DNA of 64,000 bases from Bordetella genomosp. 4 (GTDB lineage Bacteria; Pseudomonadota; Gammaproteobacteria; Burkholderiales; Burkholderiaceae_B). The notes below the pieces were generated by a model. The model saw only the letters and a list, made by a program, of their open reading frames with translations, was not told the origin of the DNA and searched no databases. The DNA is taken from positions 124,001-188,000 of the forward strand of contig NZ_NEVQ01000012.1 in assembly GCF_002261185.1 (NCBI RefSeq). Direction: 5' to 3'. The position numbers and the translations under genes were made by a program. Below are positions 60,750 to 62,323 of the stretch, one piece after another; within the stretch, counting starts at the first letter, position 1; the number at the start of each line of letters is the position of its first letter.

Positions 60750-61028
60750 GTCATCGCGCGTCTTCGGATGCGTCAGAGTTCAGCACCCACTGCTCATCAG
60801 TTCGACCCAAACTGGCAGTGCTGTCTGAATGCCCAGACAGTGATTCCTGTCGAGCCCAAAACCGGTCCCAGTGGCCGCCGTCCGTAGGGGCGGCGGCCTG
60901 TTGTTTTTAGGCTAAATCCAATATCCATGCGGGTTTCCAGCCGATTTCCAAAGTATGAAATCGATTCTCCAGACGCGGGGCCCGTCTTGGGGTAAAGTGA
61001 GATTTCGCTCGATTAGGGCATTTGGGGC
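60750..61028. other. gap between cysN and the radical SAM gene
   Basis: No frame is credible here. It holds a small hairpin CTGTCTG / CAGACAG (60821-60840), the cysN terminator (60873-60907) and about 120 bases of ordinary composition leading to the promoter of the next gene. Confidence 0.55.
60873..60907 (+). terminator. terminator of the sulfate assimilation operon
   Basis: An 8-bp all-GC stem GGCCGCCG / CGGCGGCC with a 10-base loop is followed by TGTTGTTTTT. It lies about 125 bases after the cysN stop and ends the sbp-to-cysN unit. Confidence 0.78.
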
Positions 61029-61057
61029 TTGCTGAAAGTACTGGTTTTTTGTACAGT
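61029..61057 (+). promoter_or_regulatory. promoter of the radical SAM gene, start at its ATG
   Basis: TTGCTG (61029-61034) and TACAGT (61052-61057) are spaced by 17 bases. The expected start point, about seven bases after the -10, falls on the A of the ATG at 61064. There is no Shine-Dalgarno sequence before this ATG, so a leaderless mRNA is likely. The elements are only partial matches (3/6 and 4/6), as is usual for regulated promoters. Confidence 0.45.
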
Positions 61058-61058
61058 A
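61039..61058. promoter_or_regulatory. LexA-type SOS box candidate
   Basis: TACTG-N10-CAGTA with an AT-rich centre (GTTTTTTGTA) matches the layout of the beta/gamma-proteobacterial LexA operator (TACTGTATATATATACAGTA): both outer pentamers are exact, and one half-site reads CTGG instead of CTGT. It is the core of a longer perfect 11-bp dyad (61033-61043 and 61054-61064). It covers the -10 element, so a bound repressor would block transcription. Confidence 0.65.
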
Positions 61059-61063
61059 CTTTC

Positions 61064-62323
61064 ATGGAACGCACCAAGCACGCTTTTTCCGCCGGTTCTG
61101 GGTCCCCGGCTACCGCCCCCGCCGCCTTGCGCGGCCGGGGAGCGGTTACTAATGTTCGGCATCGATTCGAGCAGACCGAGCGTGAGCCCGCCGACGACGG
61201 TTGGTCCAGCGGGCAGGTGGCGGCTTCCCAGGATGATGTGTCCGATGCCGACATTGCCGGCGGTTACATTCCCATCGTCCCCGAATCGACCCTGAAGACC
61301 ACCGTCACGTCCGAGCAGGCGCGCAAGCTCCTTTCACGTAACGATTCCCCCGATATTCCCTTTGATGTCGCAGTGAACCCCTATCGTGGGTGCGAGCACG
61401 GCTGCGTCTATTGTTACGCCCGGCCGACTCACGCCTACCTGGGGTATTCCCCTGGGCTGGATTTCGAGACTCGCCTGATCGCCAAGGCCAATGCCGTCGA
61501 TGTGTTGCGAGCCGAGCTGGCGCGGCCGGGGTATCGCGTTTCGCCGATCAATATCGGTTCGGCGACGGATGTATATCAGCCCATCGAGCGCGAATGGCAA
61601 CTGACCCGCGGCGTGCTTGAGCTCTTGCTGCAGACACGGCATCCCGCCACGATCGTCACCAAAAACGCGCTGATCGAACGCGATCTTGACCTGTTGCAGC
61701 CGCTGGCAGAGCAGCGCCTGATCACGGTATACATCAGTGTGACGACGCTGGATACCGAGATGGCGCGCACGCTCGAGCCGCGCGCGTCTGCCCCGTGGCG
61801 GCGCATTCAGGCTATTCGCACGCTGACGAATGCCGGGGTGCCTGTGGGCGTGCTGGTCGCACCCATCATTCCGTTCATCAACGACGAGTCTCTCGAACAC
61901 ATCCTGCAGGACGCACGCCAGGCGGGCGCCTGCTACGCCAGCTATACCGTCGTGCGCTTGCCCTGGGAGGTCAAAGCCGTTTTCCAGGAATGGCTGGAGG
62001 CCCATTTCCCCGATCGCGCGCAGCGCGTGCTGCACCGTATCGAGGACATGCGCAATGGCCGCCGCAACGACCCTCAATTTGGCACGCGGATGCGGGGCAC
62101 GGGCCTATGGGCCAATTTGCTGCGTCAGCGTTTCAACCTGGCCGTACGCAAACTGGGCCTGAATACCACTCGCCCCCAATTGGTCACGCATTTGTTCCAA
62201 GCGCCCAGGGCAGTCAGCCCGGCGTCCTCTGCCTCGGCTGCCTCAGTGGCAGGGCAGAGTTCATCCCGGCAATCGAGATCCTCGTCGCCGCTTTCGTCTT
62301 CACCGCAGTTAGCGCTGTTCTAA
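61064..62323 (+). CDS. PA0069-family radical SAM protein (spore-photolyase-like) with clamp-motif tail
   Basis: A 419-residue radical SAM enzyme. The N-terminal ALRGRGAVTNVRHRFE is the usual beginning of the PA0069/Rv2578c family, and the cluster motif CEHGCVYCYAR gives the ligands Cys110, Cys114 and Cys117. NIGSATDVYQPIER and VLVAPIIPFINDESLE follow in the barrel. The family is related to spore photoproduct lyase (SplB), but its substrate is not established. After the catalytic part a tail of about 30 residues rich in Ser/Ala ends exactly in QLALF (415-419), which fits the sliding-clamp binding consensus (QLxLF). Upstream lie a LexA-like box and a promoter that predicts a leaderless transcript. 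A clamp-recruited SOS function is inferred. Confidence 0.88.
   Translation: MERTKHAFSAGSGSPATAPAALRGRGAVTNVRHRFEQTEREPADDGWSSGQVAASQDDVSDADIAGGYIPIVPESTLKTTVTSEQARKLLSRNDSPDIPFDVAVNPYRGCEHGCVYCYARPTHAYLGYSPGLDFETRLIAKANAVDVLRAELARPGYRVSPINIGSATDVYQPIEREWQLTRGVLELLLQTRHPATIVTKNALIERDLDLLQPLAEQRLITVYISVTTLDTEMARTLEPRASAPWRRIQAIRTLTNAGVPVGVLVAPIIPFINDESLEHILQDARQAGACYASYTVVRLPWEVKAVFQEWLEAHFPDRAQRVLHRIEDMRNGRRNDPQFGTRMRGTGLWANLLRQRFNLAVRKLGLNTTRPQLVTHLFQAPRAVSPASSASAASVAGQSSSRQSRSSSPLSSSPQLALF

Follow-up and report, generated by a model that had tools for sequence, protein, structure and literature searches.

Organization of the locus

The start region of a gene for a radical S-adenosylmethionine (SAM) protein was analysed in a stretch of 64,000 nucleotides from Bordetella genomosp. 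4 (RefSeq assembly GCF_002261185.1, contig NZ_NEVQ01000012.1, positions 124,001 to 188,000 of the forward strand), which is called the window below. The features of the locus are collected in Table 1. The letters at 61039-61058 read TACTG-GTTTTTTGTA-CAGTA, a predicted operator of the repressor LexA, and this box was enclosed by a perfect 11-bp dyad whose final base is the A of the start codon. The hexamers TTGCTG and TACAGT were separated by a spacer of 17 bases, and the A of the ATG (61064) lay 7 bases past the end of the -10 element at 61057. A preliminary description of the window had proposed TACTG-N10-CAGTA inside such a dyad and a TACAGT that overlaps the operator 17 bases from TTGCTG, and both were borne out by the reading of the sequence at these positions.

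The energy of the duplex between the anti-Shine-Dalgarno sequence and the bases upstream of the ATG was +0.7 kcal/mol, compared with a mean of -2.7 kcal/mol over 500 18-mers drawn at random from the window and with -5.8 (next gene), -5.6, -3.3, -2.0 and -1.7 kcal/mol for the neighbouring genes. This value and the geometry of the hexamers fit the earlier proposal that transcription starts on the ATG and that no ribosome site precedes it. In simulated 64-kb sequences, no dyad with arms of at least 11 bp was found at a spacer of exactly 10 (ten sequences) or at spacers of 6-14 (three sequences). The dyad alone is little proof, because at four other positions of the real window the arms are likewise 11 bp or longer.

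The encoded protein matched NF033668 (rSAM_PA0069) with 472.1 bits against a curated cut-off of 360, which confirmed its assignment to the PA0069 family, and both the predicted fold of spore photoproduct lyase and the radical SAM motif were matched. PA0069 belongs to the LexA regulon of Pseudomonas aeruginosa. The identity to spore photoproduct lyase (PDB 4FHC and mutants) was only 16-18%, and the sequence search of the PDB returned no match. The three cluster cysteines were the only invariant cysteines in an alignment of 28 sequences (A2), so C140, the hydrogen donor, which is named in the titles of the 4FHC mutants, has no invariant counterpart in this alignment. The protein is probably a DNA-lesion repair enzyme.

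Table 1. Positions of the features around the start of the radical SAM gene in the window (clade 1, the clade of this gene; a dot, no strand assigned)
Feature	Position	Strand	Remark
Predicted LexA operator TACTGGTTTTTTGTACAGTA	61039-61058	.	Matrix score 23.5 bits, genome scan, conservation
Putative -35 element TTGCTG	61029-61034	+	TTG exactly 10 nt ahead of the LexA box
Putative -10 element TACAGT	61052-61057	+	In the right half of the operator; invariant in 36/36 clade-1 rows
Start codon ATG	61064-61066	+	At the predicted transcription start; without Shine-Dalgarno sequence
Perfect 11-bp inverted repeat around the LexA box	61033-61064	.	Arms 61033-61043 and 61054-61064, spacer 10
PA0069-family radical SAM gene, 419 aa, predicted spore-photoproduct-lyase fold	61064-62323	+	
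Second operon gene, 162 aa, C-terminal hydrophobic helix	62336-62824	+	Shine-Dalgarno CGGAGCC (good); 12-nt gap after the first gene
Predicted intrinsic terminator, 11-bp stem then TGTTGTTTTT	60873-60908	+	1 found versus 0.5 in shuffles

The terminator-like site follows a cysN-like gene and closes the upstream cys operon.

Match of the box to LexA operators

For the LexA matrix, the regions ahead of 30 lexA and 30 recA genes from the same bacterial family supplied 64 sites, and the target gene was excluded. On this matrix the target box scored 23.5 bits, while the second-highest score anywhere in the window was 9.2, and 0.05 sites at the target's score were expected by chance per genome (zero-order model), in support of the LexA-like operator suggested earlier. 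By its match to the lexA and recA operators, the box belongs to the LexA operator type of beta- and gammaproteobacteria (CTGT-N8-ACAG). The operator of the genome's own recA gene, CACTGGATTTATATACAGTA, shares the CTGG half with the target and is likewise one base off the core, and the recA operator of one relative differed from the target at one base in 20. The genome contains a LexA gene, as indicated by one match to PF01726 (E 3.6e-28).

The genome was also scanned with a sequence model (R1) for which 56 of the 64 sites were used, without the repeats and the weak second sites, and 150 of 490 first-look candidates were scored. The 14 rows at E <= 10 represented eight distinct sites: lexA, recA, uvrA, a uvrD-like gene with a divergent DUF72 gene, a FAN1-like nuclease gene, an open reading frame presumed to be imuA, a prophage-like gene and the target. 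The names uvrD and imuA are our assumption, and the frame read as imuA had no Pfam match. The bare pattern TACTG-N10-CAGTA occurred at four places in the 5.53-Mb genome, versus one for the reversed control; of the other three, L002 (29.8 bits) and L004 (20.9 bits) are LexA boxes by score and L003 (11.8 bits) is hardly one (L and G numbers denote loci and genomes).

At L002 and L004, the LexA box of two prophage-like genes (MPRYPALTIREL...) stood 7 nt ahead of the ATG, and a ribosome site was not obvious; the genes nearby are presumably SOS-response peptidases. The box at L132 (G000:C23:254503) lay between the uvrD-like gene and the divergent DUF72 gene.

Conservation of the box at orthologues

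The radical SAM gene was found by protein search in 54 of 121 family genomes. All 30 returned family loci of the target's clade carried the box at the start codon, and in a second, more distant clade (20 of the 24 remaining family matches) it was located just upstream of the gene in 20 of 20 fetched loci. Of the 80 named loci that the collection search retained, 38 had the box, 37 of them near the match; the remaining one, in L011, was 1.3 kb away from the match on the upstream side, where a 753-aa frame begins. The scan of all 462 kb of the named loci gave 38 matches above 12 bits in total. L008 and L111 are the same locus.

Two of 14 Xanthomonadales loci had a box above 12 bits, and one had a TTAG-N6-TACTA site. 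The beta/gamma-type box was found in none of 14 alphaproteobacterial orthologues, and GTTC-N7-GTTC, which we take to be the alphaproteobacterial LexA motif, was present upstream in ten of them (11 such sites across their 80 kb). The search for the dyad upstream of orthologues, which the preliminary description had named as a possible refutation, came out strongly in its favour, and its view of the radical SAM gene as an SOS gene gains support, as a prediction, from the operator match and this conservation.

A predicted leaderless layout at the start codon

The clade-1 set comprised 36 rows, or 35 distinct loci, and its 30 family genomes span nine genera. In every row, TTG stood exactly 10 nt ahead of the box, the start codon followed 5 or 6 nt past the box, that is 7-8 nt past TACAGT, and no Shine-Dalgarno motif was present. 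The leaderless arrangement that had been predicted from promoter geometry is therefore kept throughout the clade. In contrast, TTG at this distance was seen in none of 20 clade-2 loci and at none of 60 lexA/recA boxes; in clade 2 the start, where read, was mostly 10-21 nt past the box and the ribosome site was often better. The target's clade formed a single group with a support of 99 in a quick tree, and the layout was also found in single rows elsewhere (L037, L072). Regarding the start codon itself, Achromobacter has its start at offset 6, with the nearest in-frame stop starting 66 nt ahead of the end of the box, and in-frame stops lie inside or near the box in L112, L115 and L125. The layout, composed of TTG, N17, TACAGT and a start codon 7-8 nt on with no Shine-Dalgarno sequence, appears to be new; searches of the open PMC literature gave no earlier description of a leaderless LexA layout.

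The bare pattern with an ATG was detected in 101 of 229 family genomes and never in the reversed control. Of these genomes, 76 belong to clade-1 genera and 25 to other genera, where the annotated pattern sites precede another gene, which mostly has its own start further downstream. Across the order, 11 of 300 genomes contained the bare pattern. Six matches to the leaderless pattern outside the family were recorded (L261, L267-L271). A PA0069-like radical SAM gene starts at the pattern's ATG in L267, a presumably imuA-like gene is at the pattern in L268, a recA-like gene lies further down in L269, and the radical SAM gene of L271 has a later start.

Some clade-1 radical SAM proteins had long frames of 460-753 aa with N-terminal inserts (L011, L119, L122, L124, L127, L128), so start predictions may miss the box there. 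The FAN1-like gene was considered as a second leaderless case and rejected, as its TTG layout was confined to its own genus (3/3) and its start spacing varied. This gene, for a VRR-NUC nuclease (L209, G000:C16:504342), has a LexA box that is preceded by TTGATA, beginning 10 nt upstream, and followed by an ATG at a distance of 7 nt; of 25 FAN1-like loci scanned, its own included, 24 had boxes above 12 bits, at variable spacing.

The second gene and its small-protein family

The second gene of the operon was not mentioned in the preliminary description. Its 162-aa product had no Pfam or NCBIfam match, and searches of Pfam, NCBIfam and PHROGs with 18 members of the small-protein family gave only stray weak matches, each to one of the 18. 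The C-terminal helix has the consensus DVxLVAxWGAMIPGLMWLGxAxGF and was conserved behind the enzyme in 24 of 34 clade-1 rows when the strict motif was required, or 26 with BLAST. By profile search, the small family was present in 92 of 121 family genomes and 35 of 42 genera, nearly always as a single copy. The order-wide profile search, in which at most 16 candidates were scored per genome, detected it in 11 of 399 genomes, two of them marginal and outside the family. Of 27 pattern matches away from the radical SAM gene, 14 were annotated; 13 of these precede a clear small-family member and one a look-alike.

A LexA box was located within 450 nt upstream in all 65 distinct standalone loci examined (L322 and L390 being the same gene), two or more boxes in 59 of them, and TTG 10 nt ahead of a box in 63. 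This count omits weak matches in G011, G030, G049 and G100, a second in G071, and further copies behind the enzyme; some second boxes at standalone loci were weak (12-16 bits). In 17 of 58 two- or three-box loci the first two sites were 18 nt apart and shared two bases, and L391 had two boxes. At nine loci behind the enzyme, the small gene had no box of its own. Both genes carry the leaderless layout in G032, 9.4 kb apart, and four clade-1 loci of one genus (L125-L128) are without the small gene. The standalone small proteins showed one hydrophobic window near the C-terminus. By these signs, namely the boxes at all standalone loci, their mostly tandem arrangement and the conserved TTG, the small gene would be an SOS gene in its own right.

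Discussion

Given the promoter geometry and the conserved box, the 38 bases from 61029 to 61066 very probably form a sigma-70 promoter under LexA repression, with the right half of the operator doubling as the -10 element and the start codon standing at the transcription start. LexA bound to the operator would cover the -10 element and part of the spacer, so that RNA polymerase is blocked. After DNA damage, RecA-stimulated self-cleavage of LexA would free the promoter, and the mRNA would begin at the ATG or one base earlier and be translated as a leaderless message into the radical SAM enzyme of spore-photoproduct-lyase fold. The transcript would then run on into the second gene, whose small membrane protein has a ribosome site of its own.

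Several observations weigh against this interpretation. The target was the weakest of the eight sites of the genome scan (E 2.4, 12.0 bits); the ranking proposed in the preliminary description thus placed it among the distinct sites of the genome, at the lowest position. On one side it has CTGG where CTGT is expected. The box was absent from 42 of the 80 named loci, including 12 of 14 Xanthomonadales and 11 of 14 in a mixed set that belongs to none of Burkholderiales, Xanthomonadales or Alphaproteobacteria. Two clade-1 rows start with GTG, a poor leaderless start in Escherichia coli, and the start in other Burkholderiales varies in position, from within the box to a distance of over 20 nt. The promoter at 61029-61057 was not listed by a simple sigma-70 scan, which demands 4/6 consensus bases in the -35 element and 9/12 over both hexamers, because TTGCTG (3/6) and the pair of hexamers (7/12) fall below these demands; TACAGT has 4/6.

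The low rank of the target in the genome scan would suit a non-functional look-alike, which is the least credible of the explanations considered, since the box was kept at every returned family locus of the clade, and 0.05 sites per genome were expected by chance. Many repressors use perfect dyads this large, and prophage repressors presumably read similar sites; a dimeric repressor other than LexA is nevertheless very improbable, since the box matches the lexA and recA operators and the alphaproteobacterial orthologues swap in the motif that we take to be that of their own LexA. It is unlikely, though less so, that the LexA operator lies within a long leader transcribed from an unseen upstream promoter, with an RNA hairpin of the box governing access to the ATG. 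As RNA, the 11-bp dyad folded well (-23.1 kcal/mol, z -3.5), and the dyad went further past the box than with swapped flanks in clade 1 (2.56 versus 1.2), at lexA, in clade 2 and in other Burkholderiales, whereas recA and the FAN1-like gene showed no such excess. The flank pair -1/+20 covaried (22 of 28 paired versus 11.4 when shuffled). Pairing at the RNA level lacks support, because G-U pairs showed no consistent excess over A-C mismatches in the flanks (60:45 in clade 1, 24:65 at lexA); the hairpin reading of the extended dyad was rejected on this ground, and the related rows are not independent. In addition, the terminator-like site shuts the upstream operon, and the TTG at fixed spacing from TACAGT in all 36 clade-1 rows is best read as a promoter. 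The dyad around start-adjacent boxes often outreaches the 20-bp operator, with 14-18 extra pairs in L052, L221 and L229 and covarying flanks, and it is likewise extended at the lexA loci L144-L165.

A further scenario concerns the origin of the merged LexA-repressed promoter and is compatible with it. The radical SAM gene may have been inserted exactly at the start point of a small-gene promoter and have taken this promoter over, which would explain a leaderless radical SAM gene. The standalone small genes share the layout (63/65) and the sister radical SAM clade does not (0/20), and the two genes are adjacent in most clade-1 rows (24 of 34 by strict motif, 26 with BLAST). However, the layout can arise repeatedly, as it does in L037 and L072, because it is automatic once the right half-site serves as the -10 element with a 17-bp spacer. 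The two separate layouts of G032 and the four loci L125-L128 without the small gene also speak against a takeover, and we regard it as doubtful.

For the small protein itself, a role as SOS division inhibitor may be considered by analogy, a guess that we hold with less than even confidence. Tentatively, and with the balance still somewhat against it, the family could represent a new SOS-induced membrane checkpoint, an Alcaligenaceae counterpart of SidA/YneA that is mostly repressed from tandem LexA sites, widespread in the bacterial family and confined to it as far as searched, and linked, in six genera or more, with a photoproduct-lyase-like enzyme in a single leaderless LexA operon. The merging of LexA operator, -10 element and start codon in one 38-base unit provides a clear comparative case, in which leaderless translation in the proteobacterial damage response can be asked about directly. 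An unannotated membrane-protein family behind LexA boxes also makes division arrest after DNA damage testable with one gene.

Comparison with known systems

For alpha- and betaproteobacteria that have multiple chromosomes, LexA control of splB-like/COG1533 radical SAM genes has been predicted (PMC3323433), a radical SAM gene of Streptomyces venezuelae is supported by LexA chromatin immunoprecipitation sequencing and mitomycin C data (PMC9380542), a radical SAM protein is part of the Gram-positive SOS core (PMC7739468), and a LexA-controlled radical SAM gene has been named in Bacteroidetes (PMC8565304). Since such control has already been published, LexA control of the present gene is known in kind, and the main proposal of the preliminary description is nothing unusual among proteins of this group. 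Bench work would be best spent on the leaderless layout and on the small-protein family. No account of such a small-protein family was met in the open PMC literature, in which papers were not searched by its sequence.

Leaderless mRNAs account for 4.67% of primary starts in the betaproteobacterium Cupriavidus metallidurans and are enriched in repair genes (PMC7563307). That system is alike in its leaderless messages and repair-gene enrichment, and its available text shows no LexA operator merged with a start codon; the same holds for the listings of Deinococcus and Mycobacterium papers that name leaderless mRNA alongside LexA. SidA and DidA of Caulobacter and YneA of Bacillus are membrane-bound, SOS-induced division inhibitors (PMC6051672). 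Like the operon partner, they are small one-helix proteins under LexA boxes, and the likeness rests on small size, one hydrophobic helix on the C-terminal side and tandem operators; in contrast to them, the partner matched no known family. The published splB/COG1533 systems likewise place a spore-photoproduct-lyase-like radical SAM gene behind a LexA site. Differently from these systems, the gene described here belongs to Alcaligenaceae, its operator, -10 element and start codon are merged in a predicted leaderless arrangement, and its partner is a small membrane protein.
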